Positions 10,095-61,747 are shown, counted from the first letter of the stretch. The stretch: DNA of 64,000 nucleotides from a virus (IMGVR_UViG_3300047560_000921:62001-126000), one strand, 5' to 3'. Translations and numbers: made by a program. The notes: a model not told the origin generated them from the letters alone.

Positions 10095-10634
10095 ATGAGC
10101 AACGACACACTTGTATTGAACGCAGACTATCAACCTCTGTGCTTGGTTCCACTGAGCACTGTTGATTGGCAAACTGCTATTAAGGCCGTCTTCTCAGAGA
10201 AGGCTATTGTAATTAAAAACTATGACGACTGGGAAGTGCATAGTCAGCATCTGACGATTCCTGTCCCCAGCATCATTGTGGCTACAAAGTATGTCAACCC
10301 TAGCTTTGGCGTAGCGTTCAACCGTAAAATGGTTTACATGCGTGACGGCTACCGTTGCCAGTACTGCGGCGATGAGTTCCATGCCGACGACCTGACTTTT
10401 GACCACGTGATTCCGCGTAGCCAAGGCGGCGAAACTAACTGGGACAACATTGTAACGGCTTGCCGTACATGTAACTTCGTTAAAGGTACTGACCCAATGG
10501 AACCTTTGGTTGCACCACGTGCGCCAACGTATTGGGAAATGGCTAAACTTGCTCGTAAACAAACAATTTACATCAGGGACGAAGCGTGGAAGGAATACAT
10601 CCACTGGCCTGATGAGCTAGTAAGGGCCGCATGA
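10095..10634 (+). CDS. HNH endonuclease, bacterial HNH_5-like
   Basis: 179 residues. N-terminal LVLNADYQPLCLVPLSTVDW is the leader typical of chromosomal HNH proteins; the nuclease core is RDGYRCQYCGDEF (first Cys pair), LTFDHVIPRSQGGETNWDN (DH and N of the beta-beta-alpha-Me fold), and TACRTCNFVKG (second Cys pair). This is not the homing-endonuclease type with NUMOD repeats. It opens a four-gene operon with two oxygenases and a QueC-like enzyme (ATGA overlap). The start at 10095 follows the TAAATA box; an upstream TTG at 10071 would lie inside the promoter region. Confidence 0.85.
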   Translation: MSNDTLVLNADYQPLCLVPLSTVDWQTAIKAVFSEKAIVIKNYDDWEVHSQHLTIPVPSIIVATKYVNPSFGVAFNRKMVYMRDGYRCQYCGDEFHADDLTFDHVIPRSQGGETNWDNIVTACRTCNFVKGTDPMEPLVAPRAPTYWEMAKLARKQTIYIRDEAWKEYIHWPDELVRAA

Positions 10635-11335
10635 CAGTAGACGGAAAAGGTATAAGCCATAGTAGGAGTGCAGTAGATCCGGCAATTAGCAATTACGACA
10701 AACTAGTTGCGGAAACTGCGCTTCTTGGTATAGGCGATTTCGAACCGTTAGACTTCTTAGTTAACACTGCCCAGCTTGAACAAGAGCTGGCAGTGTTTTC
10801 TACTGACTGGGTCGATTACTTGCCGCGCACTGATAGGCCAAACAATCGCAAAGGCCTTAGCTTAACTACATTGGACATCGAAGGATGGGATCATCGTAGC
10901 TTGCCCAGCTTGCCTGAAGCCGCACAGGCCTTGGGTCGACCTGTTGGAGACAGTGCATTTACTAAACCCACTGCTCTATATGATGCTTGTGCTAGCTTGC
11001 ACCCATTGTTTGAAGAGTTCGCTCCCATTGGGCGTAGCTTTTTTGTTAAGTGTGGTACTGGTGGCTACTTTGTTCCCCATAGGGATAGCCCGGGATTCCC
11101 ACGTAGAGAATTTAGATTAGTATGCTTTGTTAAGAATGTTGCACCGTTACAGTATGACTGGTTAATGGATGATAGAAAAATTAACATTGAACAAGGCCGT
11201 GTATACTATGTGAACACGAAAAAGACGCATAGAACGATTAGCTGGACAGATGATAGCATCCACTTAATCATGAACATACCATTTACAGTTGCCAACGTCA
11301 ATAAGGTTATTGCCCATTTGCAACACAGACATTAA
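10631..11335 (+). CDS. 2OG-Fe(II) oxygenase, Asp/Asn beta-hydroxylase-like
   Basis: 234 residues. Iron ligands are clear: H150 and D152 in VPHRDSPG and H200 in KKTHRT, with strands FRLVCFVKN and RVYYVNTKK between. This is the double-stranded beta-helix pattern of the aspartyl/asparaginyl beta-hydroxylase and related small-molecule hydroxylases. Substrate unknown: free amino acid, peptide or nucleobase derivative are all possible. Overlaps the HNH gene by 4 bp and the PP-loop gene by 1 bp, so the three are coupled. Confidence 0.75.
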   Translation: MTVDGKGISHSRSAVDPAISNYDKLVAETALLGIGDFEPLDFLVNTAQLEQELAVFSTDWVDYLPRTDRPNNRKGLSLTTLDIEGWDHRSLPSLPEAAQALGRPVGDSAFTKPTALYDACASLHPLFEEFAPIGRSFFVKCGTGGYFVPHRDSPGFPRREFRLVCFVKNVAPLQYDWLMDDRKINIEQGRVYYVNTKKTHRTISWTDDSIHLIMNIPFTVANVNKVIAHLQHRH

Positions 11336-11970
11336 TGCTTATTACATGCGGACCTGCCAACGACCGTAGGACGTTTAATATATACATTCCTGAGTGGCCA
11401 AAGAAGATTGGTGTAACAGTTAGTGGCGGCATGGACAGTGCAATACTGTTATACCTTGTAGCAAAACTAAACAAAGAGTCGGCACACCCTAAGGAATTAA
11501 TTCCTTTTACAGTACCTCGTACGGACGGTGCTTACCGTTACAGTCCTGATATTGTGCAATATGTTAATAGGGTGTTAGATTTAAACTTACCTGCACCTAT
11601 CGCCATCGGCGATCCAACAGTACATCACAGCAAGCAGGTGGAAACAGGTACAGTGGCCATGCTAGACAATGGCATTGTGGATTATATATTTTACGGTAGC
11701 CAACAAACTCCGCCAAAGACTTGGCCCATGCCCGGGCTATATCCAGAACGCCCTACACACAACAAGTATAAACGTGCCCAAGTGCCCTTTGTGGACTTAG
11801 ACAAGCGTCATACTACCGAGTTGTACTATCAGTTCGGGCAAGAAGATTTATTGGAACTTAGTCACAGTTGTACAGAGAAACAAGTGGGCAGATGCGGACA
11901 ATGCTTTCAATGTGCAGAACGTCATTGGGCTTTTACACAATTAACCAAACGAGATCCAGGTATACAGTAA
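11335..11970 (+). CDS. queC: QueC-like PP-loop ATPase (7-cyano-7-deazaguanine synthase family)
   Basis: 211 residues. The PP-loop VSGGMDSA (29-36) activates a carboxylate or similar group with ATP. The C-terminal C179, C187, C190 and C193 in SCTEKQVGRCGQCFQC, followed by AERHWAF, match the QueC zinc site (SC...CG-x-C-x2-C-x2-R-x3-F). QueC turns 7-carboxy-7-deazaguanine (CDG) into preQ0. The window also encodes QueE (61744-62616), the preceding enzyme; QueD and GTP cyclohydrolase are not in view. Products in phages are deazaguanine DNA modifications or host tRNA queuosine. Its placement between two oxygenases is unusual, so a related PP-loop reaction on another substrate is possible. Confidence 0.65.
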   Translation: MLITCGPANDRRTFNIYIPEWPKKIGVTVSGGMDSAILLYLVAKLNKESAHPKELIPFTVPRTDGAYRYSPDIVQYVNRVLDLNLPAPIAIGDPTVHHSKQVETGTVAMLDNGIVDYIFYGSQQTPPKTWPMPGLYPERPTHNKYKRAQVPFVDLDKRHTTELYYQFGQEDLLELSHSCTEKQVGRCGQCFQCAERHWAFTQLTKRDPGIQ

Positions 11971-12653
11971 TGGCTTACTTTTTAGAAAATGCTGTAGATT
12001 TATATACTCGCACCCAGTTGCTAATGGAGCACAGGGCCGCAGGATATAAAGAAGAACTAAAAGACTACGACCCTAACAGCTATGCACAGTACAAGGGCAG
12101 GTACTTTAGTAACTTAACACCTAAGGTGCTGGAGATTATCACGCCTATTATTGATAAAGAGTTAGGCGAAGGCACTTGGAAGATAGACAGCGGCAACTTC
12201 TTCGACACTAAAGTGCCGTATAGAATACACACTGACACAGGATTGCCTGATGTAAGTCCATGGAAAACGTTTGTATTCCCACTTAAAGTATTTGCTGGCA
12301 CTGACTATGACCCAAGTAAAAATGCTTTGTACGTACTAAACCAACGTTGGTATGGACCTGCGGCATTCTTTGTTAAAGGTAGCACAGATGTTGAAGAAGA
12401 ATACAACAAAGTGGTAACTGATTACCGGGATGTTGCAGAACTATGTACGGGATTCGACGAAGACTTAGTTGCAGATTGCAGTCACTTGCCTCGTAGTAAC
12501 TTTGAAGGCCTTACAGTCAAACAACGTTTTGATTGGAAACCAGGAAATGTATTAGTGTTTGACCGCAGGCACTTGCATGTTGCTAGTAACTTTTTACGAG
12601 CTGGCGCTCATGGTAAGATTGGGCTCAGCGTGTTTACTAGTGCGATAGAATAA
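11970..12653 (+). CDS. 2OG-Fe(II) oxygenase family protein
   Basis: 227 residues from ATG 11970, which overlaps the QueC-like stop (TAATG). H87 and D89 in RIHTDTG are the proximal iron ligands; the distal His is one of RRHLHVASNF, followed by HGKIGLSVF where the 2OG-binding residue sits. A tyrosine-rich, substrate-specific insertion separates them. It belongs to the phage 2OG oxygenase group common in marine phages. Being last in the HNH-oxygenase-QueC operon, it may act on the same product as the enzyme at 10631. Confidence 0.7.
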   Translation: MAYFLENAVDLYTRTQLLMEHRAAGYKEELKDYDPNSYAQYKGRYFSNLTPKVLEIITPIIDKELGEGTWKIDSGNFFDTKVPYRIHTDTGLPDVSPWKTFVFPLKVFAGTDYDPSKNALYVLNQRWYGPAAFFVKGSTDVEEEYNKVVTDYRDVAELCTGFDEDLVADCSHLPRSNFEGLTVKQRFDWKPGNVLVFDRRHLHVASNFLRAGAHGKIGLSVFTSAIE

Positions 12654-12655
12654 CA

Positions 12656-13306
12656 TTACTTTAACATTTTGTTAAGTTGCGGAGTGGCACCGACGAGTTC
12701 TTGACATACATTTAGATACGCTATTTCCTGTGGTTTGTGTGTAGTTGACGGCATGTCATATTCTTTGCCACATACCGTTACTTTAACTGTGGTAATTTCG
12801 CACGGCTTTGCCCAAAGGCTAACTTCGGCACCGCCTAATATTGCTTCTCTTAGAGAATCGCGGATAACAACGTCGGTGTCGTCGCGTTGTCCGTTTGGTC
12901 TTGCTTTTCTACCATGCGAAGATAATCGACCAAACCTAGACTCTGTGCCCGTGCCTGGCTGATCATTGAATGCCGTTTGTTTCCTACGAACTCCCAATGG
13001 CTTTTCCGTTTCGCCAATTTTAACAACAGCTCCGTTAACTACAATAAAATACACCCACGATGTATGAGAAGAAAACATTGAATTGAAGTTAATGTTAATA
13101 TATCTCCAAAAGTTTTTAGTTAGATCTTTAATTTTAACATTACAGATATGTTTGAACCCATCTGGAATAAAATAGTCTATGTGTACATTAAGTTTGTTAG
13201 GATTTAGGTATTTCCCGCAAATTGCAGAATCGAGTAATGTAGTAACCGAAGTCACCGCCTCGCTCGGTTCTTTTTCGATAATATCAAATAACCTATTGAA
13301 CGACAT
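12656..13306 (-). CDS. GIY-YIG-like nuclease domain protein
   Basis: 216 residues. VYFIVVNGAVVKIGET (85-100) corresponds to the GIY and YIG strands in the T5orf172/MUG113 subgroup (VYF...KIG). R107 is the expected catalytic arginine and E194 in KPQEIAYLN the candidate metal ligand. A basic Arg/Lys/Gly-rich loop (SRFGRLSSHGRKARPNG) separates them. Could be a free-standing homing-type or restriction-type nuclease. GGAGAGG gives a strong ribosome site inside the end of the preceding gene. It converges with the oxygenase operon 2 nt apart. Confidence 0.6.
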   Translation of the reverse strand: MSFNRLFDIIEKEPSEAVTSVTTLLDSAICGKYLNPNKLNVHIDYFIPDGFKHICNVKIKDLTKNFWRYININFNSMFSSHTSWVYFIVVNGAVVKIGETEKPLGVRRKQTAFNDQPGTGTESRFGRLSSHGRKARPNGQRDDTDVVIRDSLREAILGGAEVSLWAKPCEITTVKVTVCGKEYDMPSTTHKPQEIAYLNVCQELVGATPQLNKMLK

Positions 13307-38906: not shown

Positions 38907-38912
38907 TATTTA
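38907..38912 (-). promoter_or_regulatory. TAAATA late-type box on the minus strand
   Basis: ACTAAATAACA, 18 nt before ATG 38888, overlapping the stop of the preceding gene. Confidence 0.35.
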
Positions 38913-39536
38913 GTTTATCAAATGTTCGGCATCTTTTAAGACGGATACTTCGGGATCGTGTTCGGACTTTAGTGTGTAGCTTTTTATAATAACTGGGGTA
39001 GGATTTCTGCCCTCTAGAATCCCTAAAATATTACTGCCGAATTCATACTTTGCCCTGCTATACGGTGGTACGATTTCTACAATTTTTACATCGTATAAAT
39101 GATTTCTACTTTCGGGCCCAAGTCGATGTATACCTTTTACTGTACTTTTTGTGTGCTGGTAGTCTCTTGCCATGTAGCATACCTTCCGTCCAAAGTTATT
39201 TGCACTGTCCAGGAATACTGGAGTTAGAAACTCGTTAATTACATGCAAGTTTTCTTTTAGCATAGAAAACTTATGCCTGTCGGCAAACACATTGCCTATA
39301 GTAGCGTAAGGCATACTAGACCAATGAGACCTGGTAACAAACATAGACATTTCTTCCTGCTCATTAAACCAACCCCATGCGCTATGTCCCAGCTCATTAT
39401 TAGCACTGATGTTAAATGATTTTCTAAAGTATTGGTCAATAGCAGTAGTAATCTTAACTTTCATGTTAGACCCGTGCGCTTGATATATTTCAAGCATACG
39501 TGGCAAGTCGGCACTAGTGAGTTTGCGTACACTCAT
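38910..39536 (-). CDS. GNAT-like acyltransferase
   Basis: 208 residues. Starts MSVRKLTSADLPRMLEIYQAH, the usual first strand and helix of GNAT enzymes; the centre WGWFNEQEEMSMFVTRSHW is the expected strand 2-3 hairpin. The acetyl-CoA loop is not clearly canonical (NNFGRKVCYMARDYQHTK). It shares the plan of 43558-44175. ATGA overlap with the PP-loop gene suggests a joint pathway. Donor and acceptor unknown. Confidence 0.5.
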   Translation of the reverse strand: MSVRKLTSADLPRMLEIYQAHGSNMKVKITTAIDQYFRKSFNISANNELGHSAWGWFNEQEEMSMFVTRSHWSSMPYATIGNVFADRHKFSMLKENLHVINEFLTPVFLDSANNFGRKVCYMARDYQHTKSTVKGIHRLGPESRNHLYDVKIVEIVPPYSRAKYEFGSNILGILEGRNPTPVIIKSYTLKSEHDPEVSVLKDAEHLIN

Positions 39537-40603
39537 AGATAGTCGGTGATGTTAATATTGTCAACAAATTCAAACTTGTCAGTAATAAAGTTATGGACAC
39601 GGCGATATCTAAACACACCTGGCAAGCTAGGGAATTTAGTCTTACGTGCAAGATAGTCTTCGTCTTTAGACAATTTGTAAATTAGTTCTTTAGCAGGGAA
39701 TTTGTAACTAACCCATGTATCTTTGATTTTACTATTGGGATTGTTCAAACTCCATTGTTGCCATTCTTCGCCTGCCCAAAAGTGACATACATGCCTATCC
39801 ATCCATGCATCGTCAATATTCTGCGAATCGTTCTTGTGACTTAAAATACGGAACTCTACTGCCTGCCACTTCATTGCAAAGTTCTGATACCACAAGTAGT
39901 CACTCCATGTTTTAATTTCCCAGGGGCAGTTTTTAATGAGCAGTTCCATTTGATCCAAGAACCACTTAGTGCGCTCTTCGTTACCAATCCTGGCATTAAA
40001 GAAATCAAAGGCAAACACTTTATAGTTGCTGTTGATTACAGATTCTGTGCCAAAGAAGTCGATGCTAGACTTTAATGTTAAGCTACCAAATACGTTATCT
40101 GCAAACTCACCAGTGATAACATAGTTGAAGCTGTTGAAGTAATTCTCAAAGCTATTGGAACTTTCTGTCTTGTAGTTACGCTTAATAACAGTTTCGTACA
40201 AGGTAGGATTTTCCTGTATACTATTGCTGTTTAAGATAATTAGCAATCGTTCTTTGAATTCTTTACTAGCATAGGTATGCATTATGTTTACAATTAGCGT
40301 ACTATCGATGCCCCCGCTATACATAATAACAGGTCTTAGATGTGTAGTCCTAACGTGTTGTTCAATCTTTTGCCATGTTAAGTAACATAGTTCTTCGAAC
40401 GTGTGCGTAAACGTTCTTACTTGAGGCATGGGATGCCTGTTAACTAGGTTAACAGGAAACTTAATAGTATTAGTTCTATCTACTAAGCTGATGCCACTGT
40501 TAAATGCTTTACTGAATACACTGTACTTGTCTAAAGCAGGGTATTGTTTACACCATTCTGGCTTGTATAAATCTAACTGGTTGTAATAAAGTAGTGCGCT
40601 CAT
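39533..40603 (-). CDS. Asparagine-synthase-like PP-loop enzyme without glutaminase domain
   Basis: 356 residues. MYSGGIDSTLIV (94-105) is the ATP pyrophosphatase loop and GEFADNVFG (165-173) corresponds to GEGADELFGG of asparagine synthetase B. The usual N-terminal class II glutaminase (Cys2) is absent; the first 90 residues are unrelated. Such enzymes adenylate a carboxylate and join it to an amine, as asparagine and beta-lactam synthetases do. Either free ammonia or another amine is used. Coupled by ATGA overlaps to the GNAT gene and the hypothetical gene at 40600. Confidence 0.75.
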   Translation of the reverse strand: MSALLYYNQLDLYKPEWCKQYPALDKYSVFSKAFNSGISLVDRTNTIKFPVNLVNRHPMPQVRTFTHTFEELCYLTWQKIEQHVRTTHLRPVIMYSGGIDSTLIVNIMHTYASKEFKERLLIILNSNSIQENPTLYETVIKRNYKTESSNSFENYFNSFNYVITGEFADNVFGSLTLKSSIDFFGTESVINSNYKVFAFDFFNARIGNEERTKWFLDQMELLIKNCPWEIKTWSDYLWYQNFAMKWQAVEFRILSHKNDSQNIDDAWMDRHVCHFWAGEEWQQWSLNNPNSKIKDTWVSYKFPAKELIYKLSKDEDYLARKTKFPSLPGVFRYRRVHNFITDKFEFVDNINITDYL

Positions 40604-41220
40604 AGTAAAATATTCAAAAATGTCTCTTTGTGTAAGTTATCCATAACTTGTTTAACTTCGTTGGCAGTAGTTGCAGCCTTTAACAGTCTTAGGTATTTGA
40701 TTCTAAACCATTCAGTCTTTGTCATCATTTCCAAGTGCATGGTATACTGTAAAATGATTTGGTCAGCCGCTTGCTCTGCGGTGCAGTTGTCTAGCTCTGC
40801 ATAGTCTAATACTAATTGTACATTACTCAAGCCGACTAAGTTTGCATCATAGCCGTGTGTCCTGAGTAGTACAGCCTGGTCGTATTTCATTTTGTATACT
40901 TCGTCTTGGCCGGCACATACTTCTATTTCCTTAACTCTAGCTAGATTAATCTTAGTAAGGATATCATAGTAGCTCCATTGCTTGTACTCGACGAACTTGC
41001 GATATTCGTCGATGTTTTCGCCCGGACTGTATACTATTTTAGATCCACGTAAAATAAAATCACTAGGGTTAGATTTAAATTGCTGTTCTAGTGACTTATC
41101 TAAGTCTCCTGTATATACGTGCGTATCAAAGAAACATTCGTTAACAAAATATAAATGTTTCTTCTCTGGTGTAGAAAGCAAAACCCGATTAAGGCTGTTA
41201 GTTAATATGTGTACCCACAT
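40600..41220 (-). CDS. Hypothetical protein of the biosynthetic island
   Basis: 206 residues. N-terminal third beta-like (MWVHILTNSLNRVLLSTPEK), the rest helical with several Leu/Lys-rich helices (DEVYKMKYDQAVLLRTHGYD; WFRIKYLRLLKAATTANEVK). It lies between the PP-loop and radical SAM genes, 4 bp overlapping the former, so may be a subunit or carrier of the pathway. No family recognised. Confidence 0.6.
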   Translation of the reverse strand: MWVHILTNSLNRVLLSTPEKKHLYFVNECFFDTHVYTGDLDKSLEQQFKSNPSDFILRGSKIVYSPGENIDEYRKFVEYKQWSYYDILTKINLARVKEIEVCAGQDEVYKMKYDQAVLLRTHGYDANLVGLSNVQLVLDYAELDNCTAEQAADQIILQYTMHLEMMTKTEWFRIKYLRLLKAATTANEVKQVMDNLHKETFLNILL

Positions 41221-41231
41221 GTCTGTCTCTC

Positions 41232-42779
41232 TTATAAATTTAAAAGTCTGTTTTTATAAAGCTGGAACCATTCTGCTTTTTTGTCTTTAAGGAAGTCTGC
41301 ACTAACGTTTTTAACGCTCACGCCTGCTAAGTCGTCGGCAGTAAGTCCAGTACCGTTCATCCACATAAACTGGAAGAACCCTGCAGGCTTAATACGACCG
41401 CTACGATATCCGCGCATAATATATTCGTCTGCAATAGCCCATGCCTTAGGTAAAGTCATATGCGGATTGCTCCACATGCTCCATCTAAAGAAGCTGTTGT
41501 TAGCAACACCTTTGTTGACGATGTTATATCCGTAAGATTCGGGATCAGCTTCGAACTTGCTAGGCCAGATTTTCTTTTCGTTAATGTTGAAGCCCAAAGG
41601 TTCAACTGTATATCCGTCTAGTGGACAGTTTTCGTCTTCGACCCACTTCATCCATTCGCGGAATGTTTCTTCCGTTTCGTGCGGCAAGCCTACAATAAAC
41701 CCACTGCTCATTGTAATGTCTTTGCCCCATGCTTCGTCTCGCAACCAGTGTAATAGTTCTTTGCTTTTCTCTGGGTGCAGTCCTTTGCCAATGGCTAACG
41801 CACTCTTATGGTTTAAACTTTCTAATCCAAATACACAGGTTTTAAGTCCGCTTTCTTTTAGCAGGGGTGCCATGTCCCTATTAGCATGGATTAAATCATG
41901 TCTTAGGTATGCACTAAACTGTATCTTAAAAGGAAGTTGTGAAAAGACTTCGTTGTATAGCTTTTCTACTTTATAGATGCTGTCGTTGTATGTATCGTCT
42001 GCAAAGATATAGTTAGTAATGCCCCACTTTTCGTAGTTACGAATGAACTCTTCTTTTAACGGCGCACTATCCTTGATGTAGTCGAACTTGTCTTTGCCGT
42101 TCATAGGAAAACTACAAAAGTCGCATCTAAAGATACATCCACGACTAATTTCAATGGGCAACACTTCGTTTTCGTAGATTAAGTCATTGTCTTCCCATAG
42201 TACTTGACTGGTTTGAAAATTCCACTCAGGGTCTTTAATCCAATCGACTTCAACTTGATGCTCGTTGATAGGAACCATTTTAAGTACAGTTTCGTCGTAA
42301 GGCTTACCTGCCAAGAAGTTAGCGTACTCTACTGTAGTATGGTCAGCATAGCCATGAATGAAGCAGTCTACTAGTTTACTGTTCTTGTATTGGCTACGTT
42401 GCCCGCCTAGTACAATTTTTGTCTTGGGATTTACTTGTTTGATATGATTAATAAACGCATAACTGACTTCAGGCTTAAACGGAAAGTCTTCAGTATATCT
42501 TAATTCGCGCCTATAGTGGTTAGGCCTACTTTTATCGCTTAGTGCTTGGTCTCTGATAGCATACAAGGTGCTACTGAATCCAACGAATAATGTGTTAGGA
42601 CCTACAAACTTGTCTACAATTTGTTTAAGCTCGTCCAAGCTCCATTCGGTTAAGTAGTCGACAACTTGTACTGTATAACCGTTCTTTCTTAATTCCGTAG
42701 CAATGCGATAAGCACCTAGTAGGCGCTGAAAAACCGTAGTGCTAGTGAACTCCGTAAAAATTACAATGTCTGCTGTCAT
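41232..42779 (-). CDS. Radical SAM enzyme, B12-binding-domain type
   Basis: 515 residues. Residues 1-165 form a Rossmann-like domain of the kind preceding the core in B12-dependent radical SAM enzymes, but the cobalamin motif DxHxxG is not seen. ISRGCIFRCDFC gives C215, C219, C222 (CX3CX2C). FGLESLN and SSGFIVGLPHETEETFREWM are the later TIM-barrel motifs of this class. Such enzymes methylate unreactive carbons, cyclise or rearrange. The 1-bp overlap with the desaturase gene suggests they act on the same acyl or lipid-like substrate, which is inference. Confidence 0.8.
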   Translation of the reverse strand: MTADIVIFTEFTSTTVFQRLLGAYRIATELRKNGYTVQVVDYLTEWSLDELKQIVDKFVGPNTLFVGFSSTLYAIRDQALSDKSRPNHYRRELRYTEDFPFKPEVSYAFINHIKQVNPKTKIVLGGQRSQYKNSKLVDCFIHGYADHTTVEYANFLAGKPYDETVLKMVPINEHQVEVDWIKDPEWNFQTSQVLWEDNDLIYENEVLPIEISRGCIFRCDFCSFPMNGKDKFDYIKDSAPLKEEFIRNYEKWGITNYIFADDTYNDSIYKVEKLYNEVFSQLPFKIQFSAYLRHDLIHANRDMAPLLKESGLKTCVFGLESLNHKSALAIGKGLHPEKSKELLHWLRDEAWGKDITMSSGFIVGLPHETEETFREWMKWVEDENCPLDGYTVEPLGFNINEKKIWPSKFEADPESYGYNIVNKGVANNSFFRWSMWSNPHMTLPKAWAIADEYIMRGYRSGRIKPAGFFQFMWMNGTGLTADDLAGVSVKNVSADFLKDKKAEWFQLYKNRLLNL

Positions 42780-43546
42780 TAAAGTCTTTTAAGTATAGGT
42801 AAGAAAATCATACACGGATCTAGTTCCCACCATTTTTCACCGAAGTTATAGTTAGCAGGATGCTTGTGATGGTTATTGTGCCAACCTTGTCCCCAAGCAA
42901 AGTATCCTAATAGCGGCACGTTGCGGCTATTATCGTCGATTTCATGATTCCTATATCCAAAGCCTTTAAGGTGGCAGAATAAGTTGATGCAAGCCTCTTG
43001 GTGTATGCCAGTAATCATGGGCAACAAGATTAAGCCAACTGCAAGTTGCCAGTTGAGTAATGCTGTAGCAATGATGATACCCCATACTATCTTATAGTAG
43101 TTAGTATGTACCCATACTTGGAATTTGTCACGTAATAAGTCTACGGCATATTTCAAGTTAACATCGGTTGGTGCAATTTTCCAACTCCAGCTAAGGTAAG
43201 CATGGAACTTGCCATGAATAGGACTGTGTATGTCTCTTGGTTTGTCAGAATGACTATGATGATATCCTCTGTGTAAAGCTACCCAGAAAATAGGACTGCC
43301 TTGTCCAGCCATGCATCCAAGTATAGTAATAACTTTTCTTGTAAACGCACTCATCTCTGGAATACACTTGTGACTAAGCACACGGTGTAATCCAATGGCA
43401 CTACCTAAACCACTAATTAAAACCCAGCCAACGGGCCAAAACCATAGGTACGACAAATCGCCCCATAGTACTAGTGCTGTTGCACCTAGCAAGGCCGCTA
43501 AGTGTACAGGCCAAAATAATTTAATGCTGTGTCCGGTAGTTTTCAT
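42779..43546 (-). CDS. Membrane fatty acid desaturase (acyl-CoA delta-9 type)
   Basis: 255 residues, with two to four hydrophobic membrane stretches (FWPVHLAALLGATALVLW; VWGIIIATALLNWQLAVGLI). All three di-iron histidine boxes are present: HRVLSH (54-59), HRGYHHSHSD (92-101) and HNNHHKHP near 225. This is the delta-9 acyl-CoA/acyl-lipid desaturase class, shorter than bacterial DesC/Ole1-type (about 300). It inserts a double bond using O2 and an electron donor that the host must supply. The ATG is 5 nt after a TAAATA box with no ribosome site. Confidence 0.85.
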   Translation of the reverse strand: MKTTGHSIKLFWPVHLAALLGATALVLWGDLSYLWFWPVGWVLISGLGSAIGLHRVLSHKCIPEMSAFTRKVITILGCMAGQGSPIFWVALHRGYHHSHSDKPRDIHSPIHGKFHAYLSWSWKIAPTDVNLKYAVDLLRDKFQVWVHTNYYKIVWGIIIATALLNWQLAVGLILLPMITGIHQEACINLFCHLKGFGYRNHEIDDNSRNVPLLGYFAWGQGWHNNHHKHPANYNFGEKWWELDPCMIFLPILKRL

Positions 43547-43551
43547 ATGCG

Positions 43552-43557
43552 TATTTA
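43552..43557 (-). promoter_or_regulatory. TAAATA late-type box adjacent to the desaturase start
   Basis: AATAAATA-CGCAT-ATG on the minus strand, the same 5-nt distance as at gp25 and the HNH gene. Would give a leaderless mRNA for desaturase and the genes behind it. Confidence 0.45.
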
Positions 43558-44175
43558 TTATTCTATCTCTTTGCGAAACTCTGGCTTTAAGTACTGCATA
43601 GTAACAACTAAGTCAGTGGGCCATAGTGCGCTGTTCATTAACCACATCCATTGGTCCAGGAACGGCGGCCTTGTGTTAGCGGGAATTACATTCATTACTA
43701 CGCTATCATAACGTTCCTGGCGTTGCTTAACATACTTGGGCCAAATGCGTTTGTGTGCAAGGTAGTAACGCTTAGGGTATGCCATAATGTACTGAAAGCA
43801 ATCACGCTTTTCTGCAAAGTCAATGGCGTGTTGCATTACTTCTACGAGTCCATTACGGTTACCTAAACTGGGCACACGTTCTGTTCTGCGAGTAATAGCT
43901 TTTTGTATGTACCACATGTTAACGTCAGGATTGAAGTACTGGGTCATGGCCGCATACAATTTGTTATCGTTAGTTTCGTCTACATATCCCCACATCATGA
44001 ACTGGGGATTATCTTCGCCTAAATATAAATTGGCAAGATTATTGTGCTTGTTCATGGACATGTCTGCCCTATAATAAGGAACACTGCTTACGTCAACACC
44101 AGCAAAGGTATTGTAGTCTCGCTGTATCTCATCGATTTGGTCAAAGTAACTAAGGTCAAGTTTTACGATTTTCAT
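43558..44175 (-). CDS. GNAT-like acyltransferase
   Basis: 205 residues. MKIVKLDLSYFDQIDEIQRD is a GNAT-like start, FMMWGYVDETNDNKLYAAMT the substrate-side hairpin, and RNGLVEVMQHAIDFAEKRDC the helix after the CoA loop. Related in plan to 38910-39536. ATGA overlap with the second PP-loop gene mirrors the GNAT/PP-loop pair at 38910-40603, so the island contains the same two-gene module twice. Confidence 0.5.
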   Translation of the reverse strand: MKIVKLDLSYFDQIDEIQRDYNTFAGVDVSSVPYYRADMSMNKHNNLANLYLGEDNPQFMMWGYVDETNDNKLYAAMTQYFNPDVNMWYIQKAITRRTERVPSLGNRNGLVEVMQHAIDFAEKRDCFQYIMAYPKRYYLAHKRIWPKYVKQRQERYDSVVMNVIPANTRPPFLDQWMWLMNSALWPTDLVVTMQYLKPEFRKEIE

Positions 44176-45107
44176 TCTAGTGTCTTAATAAAGTCTGTGG
44201 CTAACATTTCAAACCTATGGTCGTTATAAGGTATGTACTGTAGCATTTCTTGCTGAGCCTGTACGTTTAACAACTTCAATGTTTCGTACCCATGATACTT
44301 CTTTCTAGGTTTCAAGAAGAAGTACTTATTATATATGGAATACTTGCTACTTGCAATACTTAATTTACCAACTAGTTTATCTGCTAGCAAATCTTGTACA
44401 ATCGAATCGTTAACATAGGCTTTCATAATCTCAGGGGTGTAACTAAAGAACTCACTGATAACAGGGCGTTGGTTGAGTACACTGTACTTTGGTACACTCA
44501 AGTCATTATTTTCCCTAACATAATAAACCCAATTGTATTCTTGCTTTGGTTCATCAGCTAGCCACGATTTCCAGTTGAATACTTTTTCAAAGAATACTTC
44601 GCCTGTGCCTAGTACGGGAATATCGTCTTGGATTTTGTCTAGTGCCCACAAACATTGTATTTGTGCAAGTTGAATACTTTGATACTTCATACCAATTGGT
44701 ATGTACTCTTTACTACGATAAAACTCAACAATGTCTATCTCTAGGATTTTGTATTCTACGTTGTAGTAGTTACAAAAGTCTATGGCATACTTAATGTCGT
44801 GGTCATTGTATCCGTCCTTGAACCGAATAATAGTGGCACGAACACGTCGCTTTAGTCCTGCCCAAATAAATGCTTGAAGTACAAGTTCGCTGTCAATGCC
44901 GCCACTGAAGAATACATTAAACTTTTGCCCAGGGTATTTGTCTGCAAGCATTTTGCATACGTTAAGGCTTTCTTGTTTAAAATCTCCAACGGGACGGCTT
45001 GGTTTGCCCCAATGCATTTTAAATGTGCTGTAAGGATTCTTACGTAATGCAAAAGGAACGTTGTCGTAAGTCCAATGGAAGTGGTTGTTTTCTGTGTACT
45101 GGATCAT
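44172..45107 (-). CDS. Second asparagine-synthase-like PP-loop enzyme
   Basis: 311 residues. FFSGGIDSELVLQAF (66-80) is the PP-loop, followed by a long strand-helix domain (RFKDGYNDHDIKYAIDFCNY) and PVLGTGEVFFEKV in the region that corresponds to the GEGADE loop. No glutaminase domain. It differs greatly from 39533-40603 outside these motifs, so the two probably form different amide or ester bonds. ATGA overlaps join it to the GNAT-like gene and to the TauD-type gene. Confidence 0.7.
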   Translation of the reverse strand: MIQYTENNHFHWTYDNVPFALRKNPYSTFKMHWGKPSRPVGDFKQESLNVCKMLADKYPGQKFNVFFSGGIDSELVLQAFIWAGLKRRVRATIIRFKDGYNDHDIKYAIDFCNYYNVEYKILEIDIVEFYRSKEYIPIGMKYQSIQLAQIQCLWALDKIQDDIPVLGTGEVFFEKVFNWKSWLADEPKQEYNWVYYVRENNDLSVPKYSVLNQRPVISEFFSYTPEIMKAYVNDSIVQDLLADKLVGKLSIASSKYSIYNKYFFLKPRKKYHGYETLKLLNVQAQQEMLQYIPYNDHRFEMLATDFIKTLE

Positions 45108-45970
45108 TGTGTAAATGGAGGCATCTTATCAAATTCGTGGTCAATGCTGATACGTATAAAACTTCTACGCCCTTCACTGCCTTCTAAGATTTCCATATCT
45201 CCGCGTCTGTGTATTGTAGCCCAATTGTCAAATACTAGCACGTCATTGATTTCCCATTTGTGTTCTAGGAAGTCAGTTGCTTCGATTTGACTAGTGCTTA
45301 ACTCTCTCATGAATTCGTTTGAAAGGCGTAGTTCGCCTTCTTCTTTGTCTATGACTGTTCGTAAGATCCATGCGCCGTCATTGCCAAATGCATTATAACG
45401 TATAAACTCTTCGCCTGTCCATGGATGCTTGTCTAGTGCCGGATACCATTTTTGATTAGTAAAGTTTTTCTGCCAGCTATTGTACAAGAACTTTAAGTTG
45501 TCCAAGTTAATGTTATGCTTGTCCTTTTCAGTCCATTCTCGTCTAATGATACCTAAGTCTGCAACATCAGTGCTACCGCCAGTCATGTTAGTAGGTAAAT
45601 CCTTACAGTACAACAATCGGAATGGGAACGGCTCCAGGCCACGCTCATTGGCAATGTCACAGTGCCATGTAAGGCTCTTGTATAGTCTAGGATAGCTTTT
45701 ATCATCGTATTCTGTATATGCGACACCGTTGCTGGCAACCTTAAAATGTTCTTTAGTATGATTCTGATACATATCCGCAGTCCATGGGCGCCCGAACTTC
45801 TTACTAAATGCAGCCATTTCATCTGCACTTACATCTATGTTTTTAAACACTAAAGCCTTACGACGGTAAATTAATTCACGCAGTTCGATGTCGTCAAAAG
45901 CCATAATCTCGTCGAAGGTACCTTCTACAATGCTACCAACATCTTTTGTTATAGGAGTATGTTTAATCAT
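45104..45970 (-). CDS. TauD/TfdA-family 2OG dioxygenase
   Basis: 288 residues from ATG 45970, directly after the preceding stop; an upstream in-frame ATG would overlap that gene by 77 bp and adds an unrelated leader. Ligands: H103 and D105 in LTWHCDIANE, and the distal His in FDNWATIHRRG near residue 262. RLLYCKDLPTNMTGGSTDVA matches the TauD segment that binds 2OG (T/GG-x-T). The family includes taurine dioxygenase, gamma-butyrobetaine hydroxylase and clavaminate synthase, so both catabolic and biosynthetic roles exist. Confidence 0.8.
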   Translation of the reverse strand: MIKHTPITKDVGSIVEGTFDEIMAFDDIELRELIYRRKALVFKNIDVSADEMAAFSKKFGRPWTADMYQNHTKEHFKVASNGVAYTEYDDKSYPRLYKSLTWHCDIANERGLEPFPFRLLYCKDLPTNMTGGSTDVADLGIIRREWTEKDKHNINLDNLKFLYNSWQKNFTNQKWYPALDKHPWTGEEFIRYNAFGNDGAWILRTVIDKEEGELRLSNEFMRELSTSQIEATDFLEHKWEINDVLVFDNWATIHRRGDMEILEGSEGRRSFIRISIDHEFDKMPPFTQ

Positions 45971-45971
45971 A

Positions 45972-46565
45972 TTAGTAATCGTAAAATCTAGGGTTGTGGG
46001 CAACGTCGAAAATAATGTGCAGTCTATCCGTAGTGCCATTATTTCCACCCCAGTGTTTAGCTCTATTGTTAAAGCGCCACAGTTCGCCAGGTTTACATTT
46101 AATGCTTTCAGTTTCGGTTATGAACTCAACATCAGGATTAGTAGCCAGCACAATATGATACCTATTATGAATAGCAAAATACAGTCCGGGATCAACGTGC
46201 GGGTATATCTTACCGCCAGGCACTAGCTTTGAAACGTATGCTCTACCCAAATGGCCAGCTGGTATTAAAGTCATTGCATGTTCAATTAATTTTCTAACTT
46301 CGGGCAATTGCGTATAGTGTTCTGAGTCTACGATACTAATTGCATGTTGGTCTGCTAGGTCTTTTGCATCCCAGTGTTCCCCTTGATTCCTGCTTAAAAT
46401 TTCCGCAGGAGGATGAATACGCAAATGAATACTTTCGACTTCCTCTAACGCAGGGCTAATGGCTTTCACTTTGGTATGACTAGCAAACCAATCACTGTGT
46501 GCTAATACTTCTTCTAGCGCGGCTGTAACATCTATGTTAGATGCAATGTGGTCAAAATATATCAT
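45972..46565 (-). CDS. Aspartyl/asparaginyl beta-hydroxylase-like oxygenase
   Basis: 197 residues. H123 and D125 in GGKIYPHVDPG, H171 in NRAKHWGGN and R181 in TTDRLHIIFD are the iron and 2OG ligands; CKPGELWRFNN is the expected strand. Complete and probably active. Overlaps the next hydroxylase gene by 4 bp and is followed after 1 nt by the TauD-type gene. Confidence 0.8.
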   Translation of the reverse strand: MIYFDHIASNIDVTAALEEVLAHSDWFASHTKVKAISPALEEVESIHLRIHPPAEILSRNQGEHWDAKDLADQHAISIVDSEHYTQLPEVRKLIEHAMTLIPAGHLGRAYVSKLVPGGKIYPHVDPGLYFAIHNRYHIVLATNPDVEFITETESIKCKPGELWRFNNRAKHWGGNNGTTDRLHIIFDVAHNPRFYDY

Positions 46566-47116
46566 TTGTTGTAAGTAGAAAACACAAGATGCACTCTAGG
46601 TTTGAAACTGGCATTCAATGCAGTGTGCCAAACAGTGCTTACTAATGTATATAGTCTACCTTCCTCTTCCATTCTGTACAAGCCCTTCTCCGTGGCTATA
46701 AAATTATTAGGATTGGTGCTAATAGGGATATGATACCTAACTGCATCGCTGTCCTTGTGCCAACTATAACAAGTCTTTGGCCTTAATAACATAAGCCTAA
46801 TCCTACCAAGTGGCAACGGACTAACTTCTTGTACCTTGTTAATTACTTCTTCCCAATATCTTCCTTTTACATAAGAAGATATGTGAGTATAGTTTTCTTC
46901 TTGGTCTAGCTCTATGTTATTTTGTCTATCGTATAAGCTGCCAACACCGTCATACATTTGTTCTTTTATGGTATCAAATTTGCCGCTGTGACTTAAGGCA
47001 ATTTGATTAGCATCCTTGTGGAAAGGATATTGACGATACAGCACGTCTAGTTCTAGTTTTAACCGTATAGGGTCGAATTTAACGTCTAACTTTTGTACGT
47101 CTAGTGTATCGCTCAT
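46562..47116 (-). CDS. Aspartyl/asparaginyl beta-hydroxylase-like oxygenase, second copy
   Basis: 184 residues. H120 and D122 in CYSWHKDSDA, H164 in TVWHTALNA and R174 in FKPRVHLVFS are present. It shares fold and motif order with 45972-46565 but little other sequence, so the two may hydroxylate different positions. ATGA overlaps on both sides. Confidence 0.75.
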   Translation of the reverse strand: MSDTLDVQKLDVKFDPIRLKLELDVLYRQYPFHKDANQIALSHSGKFDTIKEQMYDGVGSLYDRQNNIELDQEENYTHISSYVKGRYWEEVINKVQEVSPLPLGRIRLMLLRPKTCYSWHKDSDAVRYHIPISTNPNNFIATEKGLYRMEEEGRLYTLVSTVWHTALNASFKPRVHLVFSTYNK

Positions 47117-47709
47117 ATAGTACTCGTATCGCCTTTGTATGTTACATTACTTATGTAACTCTTCTCATCGGCGATGTCCACCGCAAAAGCAATTACTTTA
47201 ACTAATTGACTTACAGACATAATACTGTTAGGCTGTCTAATTTGTGCGTAGGTATAAGTGCTAGTGTCTGTCAAGAAATCTGTTTTAACGTGTCCTGGCT
47301 TTACATTAATGATTTTACACTTGCAGCCAGCAGCCATATTCATTTGATAGCCTGCATCGTCTAATGCTTTCTTGTGTAGTCCGTAAGGGTATACTTTGCC
47401 CATGTGCATACATGCATCTCCTGCTAGACTACTGACATTGACAATCATGTAGTTGGGTTTCTTTTGATGAAAGCCGTACCAACGTTGTAGCAAGTCTACT
47501 TGTGCATACCTAAAGTACGCATTGTTGATAAACAAGTCGCAGTCCAGAGTTTCGTTTATAATACGCTCTTGGTCGTCACCCTTACTGATATCATAGCCAT
47601 TGGATCTACTGAACCCAATAACTTCAATACCTAGGCCTGTATAGTAGTCATATAGCGCCTTACCGATGCCTTTTGTGTGTCCCGTTATTGCTATCTTATT
47701 TGGAGTCAT
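47113..47709 (-). CDS. Short-chain dehydrogenase/reductase
   Basis: 198 residues. ITGHTKGIGKAL is the NAD(P)-binding TGxxxGIG, LFINNAY replaces NNAG, VNVSSLAG provides the catalytic Ser, and YPYGLHKKAL the Tyr-x3-Lys pair; IINVKPGHVKTDF closes the site. Short for the family (about 250), but all catalytic residues are present. Probably reduces or oxidises a carbonyl or hydroxyl in the island's pathway. Confidence 0.85.
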   Translation of the reverse strand: MTPNKIAITGHTKGIGKALYDYYTGLGIEVIGFSRSNGYDISKGDDQERIINETLDCDLFINNAYFRYAQVDLLQRWYGFHQKKPNYMIVNVSSLAGDACMHMGKVYPYGLHKKALDDAGYQMNMAAGCKCKIINVKPGHVKTDFLTDTSTYTYAQIRQPNSIMSVSQLVKVIAFAVDIADEKSYISNVTYKGDTSTI

Positions 47710-48313
47710 TGCATTGCTCGCATGTTATTTCTTTTAAGTATCCGATAAAGTCTAAATCGGAACCAGGTTTGAGTGGCATAGTTGCAACCCATTGGCAACA
47801 TTCTTGTGGCATATATCCGGGCGGCAATGGCCCGCATACACCTAACTTAGTGTCGTGCATTTTAAAGTTGTAGCCACCGTTGGCATTAACTAAGTCTATA
47901 AACTTACTGAAACTTCTTTGTTTGTCTTCCCTGCTAATGAACACGCAATCTAAATTTAAACTGCGGGCAACAGCTATTTGTCTAGGAATCAAATACGCAC
48001 TATTAACGTATCTGTCACTAGGTTCGAACTTCTGTAAATGTGTATGACGATACTTTGGTGGGATGTAAAATCTAGCACTAACTCTAGCTTTACCTGGACC
48101 CCATCTGTCCTGTTGAATTTGCATACCGCTAAAAGCTAAAACCTCACTACCGCGCAAGGCAACAGTGAGGCTGGCAAAGTCTTTAGGCTGGATTCCAACG
48201 TAATTGGCTTTTAGTTCATCATCTCCCAGTTGAATTTCTTCTACTACTTGATTGAACAATGCCAAATACGTTGTGTCTCTGCATAAGTCAGTTACAATTA
48301 CTTGTTCAGCCAT
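47696..48313 (-). CDS. GNAT-like acyltransferase, third in the island
   Basis: 205 residues. LTVALRGSEVLAFSGMQIQQ and KARVSARFYIPPKYRHTHLQ form the GNAT beta-strand 2-4 region; the C terminus has four Cys (VCGPLPPG, QECCQW, EITCEQC) that might bind metal. Overlaps the SDR gene by 14 bp and ThyX by 16 bp, marking it as the promoter-proximal gene of the island. Confidence 0.5.
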   Translation of the reverse strand: MAEQVIVTDLCRDTTYLALFNQVVEEIQLGDDELKANYVGIQPKDFASLTVALRGSEVLAFSGMQIQQDRWGPGKARVSARFYIPPKYRHTHLQKFEPSDRYVNSAYLIPRQIAVARSLNLDCVFISREDKQRSFSKFIDLVNANGGYNFKMHDTKLGVCGPLPPGYMPQECCQWVATMPLKPGSDLDFIGYLKEITCEQCNDSK

Positions 48314-49185
48314 TTCTCAGTGAACTCTCGAATCTCTCGTTGACCCATACCGTACTGCTTGGCAATACCGTTAACATCACGGAAGTCTTCTAGTAGGTTC
48401 AGCCACTTTTCTTCGCTAAGTAGACGTTTAATCAAATCAACCTCCATGCGACTGCATGTTACACTGTGTTGTTCGTAATCTTCGAAGGCCTCGCACACTT
48501 GAGGGAATAGTGCCTTAACCAAGTTGTACATAGCATTGGCAAGTTCTCTAATCTCCCATTGGGCATGAGGATCAGCACGTAGGCGAACCATATGCAAGAA
48601 GTTCTTCATGTTAGCTTTCCAGTATAGCTCGGTATATCCGCCAACTGGTAATACCATACGACTAAGTTCACGGGCAACACCGTCACCGTCTTTACCTAGT
48701 AGGTATTCGTAGTCCTTGAAGCTATTGTTGTAAGCTCTCATGAACGCATGTTGATAGTCCTGACGTTGTGCTGTGTCCCACCCGTCGAACTCTTCGCGTC
48801 CTTGCTTGTTTAATGTGCTTTGTGGTGCAATTTGATTAAGTTCGGGAATGTAAAACTCATCGGTCATTACGCTGTAACGTGCGCTGTATTCGTTAATACT
48901 AGCAGTACGATGACGTACAAGTTGGCGCATAACAAAGATAGGTACCTTAATGTGGAATTTAACTTCGCACATTTCAAACGGTGTAGTGTGCTTGTGACGC
49001 ATCAAGTAACGAATCAAGTTTCTATCATCGCTTACTTGCTTAGTGCCTTCGCCGTAACTTACTCGTGCGGCTTGTACTACTGCCGCATCGTTGCCCATAT
49101 GGTCAACAAGTCCTACAAAGCCATGGTCCAATAAAGGAACATACGTTTTGTCATTTTCAAAATCAATATCACTTCTTAGTGTCAT
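48298..49185 (-). CDS. thyX: Flavin-dependent thymidylate synthase
   Basis: 295 residues from ATG 49185, chosen because GGAG stands 7 nt upstream. Converts dUMP to dTMP with FAD and methylene-tetrahydrofolate. The ThyX signature RHRTASINEYSARYS begins at residue 91. ARVSYGEGTK and HTTPFEMCEVKFHIKVPIF also match. Supplies dTTP for phage replication. It overlaps the first gene of the biosynthetic island, but thymidylate synthesis itself gives no link to it. Confidence 0.95.
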   Translation of the reverse strand: MTLRSDIDFENDKTYVPLLDHGFVGLVDHMGNDAAVVQAARVSYGEGTKQVSDDRNLIRYLMRHKHTTPFEMCEVKFHIKVPIFVMRQLVRHRTASINEYSARYSVMTDEFYIPELNQIAPQSTLNKQGREEFDGWDTAQRQDYQHAFMRAYNNSFKDYEYLLGKDGDGVARELSRMVLPVGGYTELYWKANMKNFLHMVRLRADPHAQWEIRELANAMYNLVKALFPQVCEAFEDYEQHSVTCSRMEVDLIKRLLSEEKWLNLLEDFRDVNGIAKQYGMGQREIREFTEKWLNK

Positions 49186-49495
49186 CTGTGTCTCCGCCGC
49201 CTTCAAAATGTTTTGCTAGCAATGTGCTAACATACTTTTTCATGTGTTTCTTAATCCTAGTCAAGTCCATGGTAATCTCTACGTCGGTAACCATGTCCTT
49301 GGTCTCGATAAGACCTTCTTCTTGTAGTTTGTCTGGTAAGCTGTCTAGCTTTGCTATTTCTTTTCCAGTGAACCTAATAGTTTGTCCAGTAACTAAGTGA
49401 ACTAGCACTTCTTCGATGTACTCGGCAGGTACATGATTCATAACAACATCATCTAGGATGTCGTCAAAGCCACGATCTTTTCTTCTAATAGCCAT
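49169..49495 (-). CDS. Conserved hypothetical protein
   Basis: 108 residues, starting MAIRRKDRGFDDILDDVVMN, acidic-helical, with a central hydrophobic beta pair (VLVHLVTGQTIRFTG) and an Asp/Gly/Lys tail. Overlaps thyX by 17 bp. I recall similar short proteins in T4-like phages; function unknown. Confidence 0.65.
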   Translation of the reverse strand: MAIRRKDRGFDDILDDVVMNHVPAEYIEEVLVHLVTGQTIRFTGKEIAKLDSLPDKLQEEGLIETKDMVTDVEITMDLTRIKKHMKKYVSTLLAKHFEGGGDTDDTKK

Positions 49496-53888: not shown

Positions 53889-54161
53889 TCAGATGGCCAT
53901 TTGGACCATCATTGCGTCTTCGGCGTAGCACCCAATCCAGTAAGGTCTAGACATACCACTTGGCGCATGTCCGAACTTAGTAGTCCACCGACCTTGCTGA
54001 CGACTGGTACACCAATTGTCTCTACTGTACTGAGATCCAATTACACGTTCGAACGCACGACTTACGTCTTGTGCTTCCTTACCGTAACTGTTAAACCGAA
54101 ACGCATGTGAGTATCCTTGATGATATAGGCTATGTGTCTTGTTCAGCTTCACTAGCCTCAT
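53889..54161 (-). CDS. Conserved hypothetical protein
   Basis: 90 residues from ATG 54161: MRLVKLNKTHSLYHQGYSHA, then SRAFERVIGSQYSRDNWC and YWIGCYAEDAM. The aromatic ending resembles short phage proteins I cannot name. A start further up (54176) or a GTG at 54152 with GAGG is possible. Overlaps the HNH gene by 32 bp. Confidence 0.6.
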   Translation of the reverse strand: MRLVKLNKTHSLYHQGYSHAFRFNSYGKEAQDVSRAFERVIGSQYSRDNWCTSRQQGRWTTKFGHAPSGMSRPYWIGCYAEDAMMVQMAI

Positions 54162-54612
54162 TGAACTTTTTTGCACCTAAATAATCCTTGTTCTTCATAG
54201 TTTTAATTCTATGGCATCTGCAACACCTAGTAACAATATTACCTTTTGTGTCACTGCCGCCATCGCTTTTTAAATGTTGATGGTCGCCTTCAAGTGTGGC
54301 TCGCATACATGCAAGTTTATGAAACGGGTCTTCAATGTCATCAAATGCAGAATCTGTCCTAGGATCATATCCGCAGTCGTTGCAAACCCAATCACGATAA
54401 AATGTATGCGGACGATCCGCCTTACCCATGCCACCATATTCCGTAAGCATCAATTGATGTTCGCGGCAGTAACTATCACTACCTGGTCCTTCAAAATCAG
54501 TTAACGCAAGGTCGCAATCTTCTAATCGACACACGGGAACATACCGCACTTGACTCTTCAGAAGGCTAAAACTCTTACGCTTGTCCTTTATGGGATCACG
54601 CAGTTTAGACAT
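54130..54612 (-). CDS. HNH endonuclease (phage type)
   Basis: 160 residues. Two Cys pairs early (VCRLEDC...YCREH) and VCNDCGYD form a zinc site; LEGDHQHLKSDGGSDTKGN and TRCCRCHRIKTMKNK hold the DH, N and Cys pair of the HNH motif. ATG 54612 overlaps the preceding stop (TAATG); a GTG two codons earlier is possible. Could be a free-standing homing endonuclease or act in packaging or recombination. Confidence 0.75.
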   Translation of the reverse strand: MSKLRDPIKDKRKSFSLLKSQVRYVPVCRLEDCDLALTDFEGPGSDSYCREHQLMLTEYGGMGKADRPHTFYRDWVCNDCGYDPRTDSAFDDIEDPFHKLACMRATLEGDHQHLKSDGGSDTKGNIVTRCCRCHRIKTMKNKDYLGAKKFNEASEAEQDT

Positions 54613-61568: not shown

Positions 61569-61747
61569 ACATGTTCTTTACCCCATTCGATTTTAAGCCA
61601 AACTCTTTCCATAACATAATGGATAAGGGTAAGAATGATATGGATAACAATAGCAGTGCCCAAACCTGTAATAAGGGCAGTGATCAGTGTTGCAACAATC
61701 CTATAGGAAATTGCCCTAGCTAATGTTCTGCTATGTGTTTCTGTCAT
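61565..61747 (-). CDS. DUF2061-type small membrane protein
   Basis: 60 residues from ATG 61747 (ATGA overlap with queE): THSRTLARAISYRIVATLIT, LITGLGTAIVIHIILTLIH, YYxMERVWLKIEWG-like ending. This is the pattern of DUF2061 proteins: a basic first helix, a transmembrane pair and (H/M)ERVW-x-x-x-x-WG. Its coupling to queE is of interest, since no link between the families is known to me. Confidence 0.75.
   Translation of the reverse strand: MTETHSRTLARAISYRIVATLITALITGLGTAIVIHIILTLIHYVMERVWLKIEWGKEHV

Follow-up and report, generated by a model that had tools for sequence, protein, structure and literature searches.

A QueC-like gene between two putative 2OG oxygenase genes in an uncultured phage with 7-deazaguanine pathway genes

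An uncultured phage that encodes a QueC-like PP-loop protein between two putative Fe(II)/2OG oxygenases probably produces an unusual oxidised guanine-like base. This reading follows from the content of the genome, which carries the rest of the 7-deazaguanine pathway in addition to the QueC-like/oxygenase operon, and is based on which genes are present and co-occur, on the motifs they encode and on the relationships of their families. The window, i.e. the whole stretch of DNA analysed (64,000 nucleotides), spans bases 62001-126000 of a 231,384-base virus record (IMGVR_UViG_3300047560_000921); positions below are those of the window unless given as genome positions. The terminase matches those of T4-like large phages, among which a Wroclawvirus is the nearest (55%).

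The operon and its QueC-like protein

Four plus-strand open reading frames overlap one another at 10095-12653, as an earlier note on this DNA had described. Their junctions read ATGA (HNH/OX1, a 4-bp overlap), TAATG (OX1/QueC-like, 1 bp) and again TAATG (QueC-like/OX2, 1 bp). The same gene order is found in three other IMG/VR records at 76-96% protein identity, and owing to this conservation in further contigs the arrangement is not attributed to chance. The features of the operon, along with a QueE-like gene near the right edge of the window, are as follows:

10095-10634, + strand: HNH endonuclease-family protein, 179 aa, first gene of the operon (Pfam HNH, 61.6 bits; PHROG 16726, 135 bits)
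10631-11335, + strand: OX1, putative Fe(II)/2OG oxygenase, 234 aa, aspartyl/asparaginyl beta-hydroxylase-like; homologue adjacent or near in 31 loci
11078-11086, + strand: HxD motif of OX1, H150-R-D152; invariant columns, with a presumed role in metal binding
11335-11970, + strand: QueC-like PP-loop/zinc-ribbon protein, 211 aa, of a family distinct from canonical QueC
11422-11439, + strand: PP-loop motif SGGMDS, residues 30-35; S30, G32, D34 and S35 invariant (n=56)
11869-11913, + strand: four-cysteine zinc-binding motif C179-(x)7-C187xxC190xxC193; invariant in the family and homologous to the QueC/Cap9 Cys site
11970-12653, + strand: OX2, putative Fe(II)/2OG oxygenase, 227 aa; homologue in 24 loci, 23 of them also with OX1
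12228-12236, + strand: HxD motif of OX2, H87-T-D89; invariant columns, with a presumed role in metal binding
61744-62616, - strand: QueE-like radical SAM protein at the start of the transglycosylase cluster (PHROG QueE-like, 176 bits)

Neither oxygenase of this phage matches Pfam by itself, and a PADLOC search returned no matches for OX1 or OX2. The H150 and D152 residues of OX1, together with a distal His200 (11228-11230), are invariant across 22 sequences; one relative matches Asp_Arg_Hydrox weakly (PF05118; E 6.5e-4), and OX1 itself shares 30% identity with a protein of Pelagibacter phage Mosig that carries the annotation Asp_Arg_Hydrox. In OX2, H87, D89 and a distal His203 (12576-12578) are invariant and K216 is nearly so, and the best PDB matches of an AlphaFold2 model (pLDDT 89.5) are Fe/2OG oxygenases (E 6.6e-6 to 3e-5). 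The PP-loop protein thus lies, as the earlier note had proposed, between two proteins with features of 2OG oxygenases, OX1 being the more tentatively assigned of the two, and the pairing is conserved.

The HNH gene, on the other hand, adjoins OX1 in only four oxygenase-type loci (L007, L055, L042 and L005). It was considered as a component of the module and rejected, as it is conserved only in the nearest relatives. The suggestion that its product could discriminate modified from unmodified DNA gained no support from this distribution or from membership of a generic HNH family. The stretch 54130-55766 (-) holds a second HNH-like gene beside one for a 384-aa protein that has no Pfam match and appears ParB-like by eye. 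Between OX2 and the next gene, an endonuclease-like gene with a weak match to PHROG 1111 occupies 12656-13306 (-); the relatives used for comparison do not have it, their OX2 directly abutting the next gene, and it is therefore probably a recent mobile insertion.

Judged by its sequence, the PP-loop protein is QueC-like and not a true QueC. Its Pfam QueC match (35 bits) is confined to the C-terminal 55 residues, and against the QueC equivalog model TIGR00364 it scores 26.1 bits vs a cut-off of 150.3. Among 56 family sequences, the invariant elements are those of SGGxDS, a central G, P...K, HxC and GRCGxCxxCxER; the PP-loop pattern is exact in 54 members and the cysteine spacing C(x)7CxxCxxC is found in 55, the (x)7 spacing also being present in the QueC of phage Finch and the Gat-QueC of phage 9g. 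By pattern search, the substrate motifs YxQxHxxE, VPxRN and YPDC occur in none of the 56, whereas the same patterns find all three in the QueC of E. coli, Arbiter, Finch (as YADC) and phiSM. These missing motifs include three residues, Tyr35, Arg99 and Tyr131, none of which E. coli QueC can do without (PMC13329287). In a tree, the family separates from true QueC. The earlier note had called the enzyme QueC-like and had named its clustering away from QueC as an outcome that would refute its reading; that is the outcome obtained, with the substrate signature also gone. Given this separation and the lost signature, it does not follow that the protein makes preQ0.

The best solved relatives of the family in a profile search are Cap9 (1e-6) and QueC (2e-6). 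A predicted model of the protein (pLDDT 94) likewise has its best fold match in Cap9 (E 1.2e-5, 14% identity), the nearest fold being a Cap9 structure with its deazaguanine product. Loss of the recognition residues speaks for a pocket unlike that of QueC, by analogy with QatC (PMC13279940). The family is outside the clusters analysed in a 2026 survey of QueC (PMC13329287).

No canonical QueC was found in any record with the QueC-like gene, and in the present genome the QueC-like protein is the sole QueC-family protein above the Pfam cut-off. A second QueC match, at 44724-44915, belongs to a different PP-loop protein. Additionally, a long run of overlapping enzyme genes occupies 38910-49206 (-), encoding two further PP-loop/asparagine-synthetase-like proteins, a B12-type radical SAM protein, a desaturase-like protein, TauD-like and LpxO-like oxygenases, an SDR-like protein and ThyX.

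Distribution of the family and its two contexts

A DNA pattern for GRCGxCxxCxER occurs in 112 IMG/VR stretches, about 100 of which encode one QueC-like protein family. Two family members searched by tblastn against 50,697 phage genomes, cultured phages included, gave no match, and none of six motif matches in 84,980 bacterial and archaeal species genomes is a PP-loop family member, one of them being a chance reading frame (16 bits). The family can thus be described as virus-restricted within the limits of a genome motif scan that required an exact match and a tblastn search that used two members.

Clustering of the neighbours at 99 loci resolves two contexts. NrdB is encoded near the QueC-like gene in 54 loci and NrdA in 50, with OX1 and OX2 homologues in 31 and 24, respectively; OX1 and OX2 occur together, both adjacent, in 23, and none of the clustered loci combines OX1 with Nrd. 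The tree mirrors this division, with oxygenase-type proteins, that of the present phage among them, forming one clade (support 0.94) and RNR-type proteins another (0.72). In the RNR-type loci (L020-L130), about half of the family, the QueC-like gene adjoins nrdA and nrdB, mostly lying between them, and often thyX and glutaredoxin; primase genes are also among the neighbours. The genome of the present phage has no match to nrdA or nrdB. In eight oxygenase-type loci, L021 and L089 among them, the QueC-like gene adjoins an oppositely oriented radical SAM gene (cluster 16).

Pathway genes and a divergent transglycosylase

The earlier note reported a QueE gene and advised searching the full genome for queD and folE; all three are encoded. 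FolE (genome 127379-128074; 137 bits) and QueD (genome 200251-200754; 56 bits) lie outside the window and score above their Pfam cut-offs, and the QueE-like protein reaches 48 bits against the NCBIfam QueE models, below their cut-off, as all three proteins do against the NCBIfam equivalogs. Of the claim that the phage makes a deazaguanine, the part that concerns 7-deazaguanine genes (FolE, QueD, QueE and a transglycosylase) stands, and the part that would imply preQ0 production does not follow.

Searches with Pfam TGT (PF01702) and with a DpdA profile, built from nine sequences with phage 9g as the positive control, detected no transglycosylase in the genome. This provisional conclusion was overturned by a TGT-like protein at genome 132615-134144 that carries the motif DSGGFQ. 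When aligned together with its relatives against E. coli TGT by hhalign, it matches with a probability of 96.4 (E 1.4e-9) over 191 columns, spanning DSGGFQ and the FDC nucleophile region; in a PDB profile search most of its matches are TGT, each weak singly (best E 0.013). The DpdA-like transglycosylase that the earlier note had suggested seeking is thus represented by a divergent TGT-like one. Incorporation at the nucleotide level, which had been considered in view of a phosphoribosyltransferase by FolE, a dNMP kinase and the QueC-like genes in RNR operons of other phages, became unneeded once the transglycosylase was found.

The transglycosylase belongs to a widespread cluster that extends from position 61744 to beyond the window's right end (genome 123744-134144) and includes a protein of about 120 aa containing PHRHIFHF, a glycosyltransferase-like protein, FolE, a phosphoribosyltransferase and QueE. 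Relatives of the transglycosylase occur in over 500 IMG/VR stretches and match PHROG 10773 (‘unknown function’). Within 10 kb of the gene in 80 stretches, the ~120-aa protein is encoded in at least 68, the glycosyltransferase-like protein in 62, FolE in 53, the phosphoribosyltransferase in 38 and QueE in 33, all of these being lower bounds because the flanks are often short. Cultured carriers are the Wroclawviruses, Acidovorax phage ACP17 and, as a partial match, Sinorhizobium phage Phosso; the gene is annotated as hypothetical in the Wroclawviruses and ACP17. The ~120-aa protein (genome 129956-130321, -) is possibly another QueD/PTPS-like enzyme, very divergent from the first, as it is still encoded in transglycosylase-cluster records that contain no PF01242 QueD. 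An hhalign match (probability 71) over its C-terminal part is suggestive at most, and the PDB gave this no support.

The association of the oxygenase module with the pathway is uneven. QueD is present in 17 of 25 QueC-like records vs none of 15 terminase-matched related records (Fisher p 1e-5), although such p-values overstate the evidence and are to be read as descriptive because the records are fragmentary and the relatives are not independent. Among oxygenase-type records, the present phage included, 13/17 have QueD. The QueC-like protein and OX1 are absent from the ten of the 15 control records that were read in pieces, four of which have the transglycosylase cluster without QueD or the QueC-like gene. 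All eight FolE-bearing records among 26 with the QueC-like gene encode the transglycosylase, and QueD too, as compared with 0/18 of the others for the transglycosylase. In the reciprocal search, only 2 of 21 long transglycosylase-bearing contigs carry the QueC-like gene, and so the idea that it is an obligate part of the transglycosylase cluster was rejected; nor was it borne out that the oxygenases are a general part of that cluster. The cultured phages PAC2, ACP17 and Phosso have no convincing QueC-like match, the weak one in PAC2 scoring 16.7 bits. Two records (G017, 139 kb; G018, 161 kb) have the QueC-like gene without QueD or the transglycosylase, and a 244-kb record (G014) encodes the QueC-like protein, OX1, OX2 and QueD, whereas FolE, QueE and the transglycosylase are all missing from it. 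The genes thus seem to fall into two units that can occur apart: one is the CDG/transglycosylase cluster, the other consists of QueD, the QueC-like protein, OX1 and OX2. The present phage carries both.

Proposed function and rival explanations

From this context, we give slightly less than an even chance to OX1, the QueC-like protein and OX2 forming an oxygenase-tailored 7-deazaguanine module, i.e. a phage base-tailoring module. By analogy with QueC and Cap9, the QueC-like enzyme would adenylate a carboxylate with ATP. Its substrate would most likely be 7-carboxy-7-deazaguanine (CDG) or a close relative, supplied by FolE, QueD and QueE; CDG is favoured because the phage has the means to synthesise it and because it is the substrate of the nearest solved relatives. 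Coupling to ammonia or another amine would then give an amide or other conjugate, not necessarily preQ0, which OX1 and OX2 would presumably oxidise afterwards. The divergent TGT/DpdA-like transglycosylase and its glycosyltransferase-like partner could place the base in nucleic acid. The target would most likely be phage DNA, as anti-restriction camouflage, in view of the transglycosylase and of precedent (PMC6884629), and tRNA is also possible. The full proposal is more tentative and in its entirety rather unlikely: a QueC-derived ligase confined to viruses would act with the two 2OG oxygenases to yield a 7-deazaguanine in hydroxylated or conjugated form, and a transglycosylase family so far unrecognised would insert this base into phage DNA, where glycosylation may follow.

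Three other explanations bear on the same observations. The module may act outside deazaguanine metabolism, the QueC-like protein amidating another nucleotide or pterin carboxylate, such as 6-carboxytetrahydropterin from a QueD-like enzyme, and the oxygenases modifying the product. The residues for CDG are missing, the second clade has nrdA/nrdB, thyX, glutaredoxin and primase genes as its neighbours, two of its long records being devoid of QueD, FolE and transglycosylase, and it is QueD rather than the transglycosylase that tracks the oxygenase-type module; even so, the closest characterised relatives act on 7-deazaguanine (PMC13279940) and QueD accompanies FolE and the transglycosylase in all eight records that have them, and we regard this explanation as unlikely. 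The proximity of Cap9 in both fold and sequence raises instead the prospect of a protein-modifying ligase like Cap9/QatC, which would attach a deazaguanine to a partner protein, with the oxygenases serving as that partner or as its modifiers. The N-terminal tail of OX1 varies, although an (I/V)SG motif recurs in it, and QatC, too, is without the canonical Tyr/Asp of QueC (PMC13279940). However, OX1 N-termini begin MT, MK, MN, ML or MS, and the Met-Gly acceptor start of CdnD and QatB (PMC13279940) is found in just 1/21 (L130); the Cap9 fold match is weak, and neither a CD-NTase nor QatA/B/D was identified among the operon genes, all of which renders such a ligase improbable.

A fast-diverged but functional preQ0 synthase, which would raise queuosine in host tRNA or supply preQ0, is the remaining candidate. 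As the only QueC-family protein of the genome above the Pfam cut-off, the QueC-like protein would fill the QueC slot beside FolE, QueD and QueE, and it has been proposed in print that phages without DpdA boost the Q of their host (PMC6884629). Set against this are the absence of the motifs with the essential Tyr35, Arg99 and Tyr131 (PMC13329287) from all family members, two oxygenases that have no role in preQ0 synthesis, and the encoded transglycosylase; we consider it very unlikely.

Relation to known systems

Deazaguanine modification of phage DNA is already known (PMC6884629), and an oxygenase-tailored 7-deazaguanine would add oxidation to the known chemistry of these bases. A literature search with incomplete coverage gave no link of 2OG oxygenases to phage 7-deazaguanine in titles and abstracts, and no report that connects QueC-like genes with phage RNR operons and oxygenases. 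The assignment of the transglycosylase, if true, would place PHROG 10773 and its relatives, a large phage family now labelled ‘unknown’ and encoded in the IMG/VR stretches counted above, in the TGT superfamily. It would also explain base insertion in some pathway-bearing phages that have no recognisable DpdA, a question left open for 48 phages without DpdA (PMC6884629).

The QueC-like family shares with canonical QueC the SGGxDS PP-loop, the four-Cys zinc site, a PF....K element, a length of about 220 aa and co-occurrence with QueD, QueE and FolE. It differs in the three absent substrate motifs, in a score far below TIGR00364, in its oxygenase or RNR neighbours and in the Cys spacing, which is (x)8 in E. 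coli QueC. Cap9 (type IV CBASS) and QatC provide the precedent of a QueC-like fold diverged from preQ0 synthesis, but the phage protein lies outside a defence locus, with none of their partners identified, and Cap9 keeps Y.DC-type residues that the phage family does not have.

The DpdA phages 9g, CAjan and Rosebush (PMC6884629) likewise combine FolE, QueD, QueE, a QueC-family protein and a TGT-superfamily protein in one phage. Unlike theirs, the present transglycosylase falls outside the DpdA profile built here, its relatives belonging to PHROG 10773, its cluster contains glycosyltransferase-like and phosphoribosyltransferase genes, and oxygenases lie beside the QueC-like gene. Campylobacter phages with dADG and no DpdA (cited in PMC6884629) also have deazaguanine genes without a recognisable DpdA; since a divergent transglycosylase is present here, unlike in those phages, dNTP-level synthesis need not be invoked. 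Finally, the CmoX/CmoY carboxymethylcytosine hypermodification system of an aquatic phage (PMC12783734) resembles the proposed module in that an amide ligase dependent on ATP uses a base-borne carboxylate as its handle, although that ligase is of the asparagine-synthetase type, acts on cytosine and has no QueC-type zinc ribbon, and no oxygenase pair is reported in the part of the description covered here.
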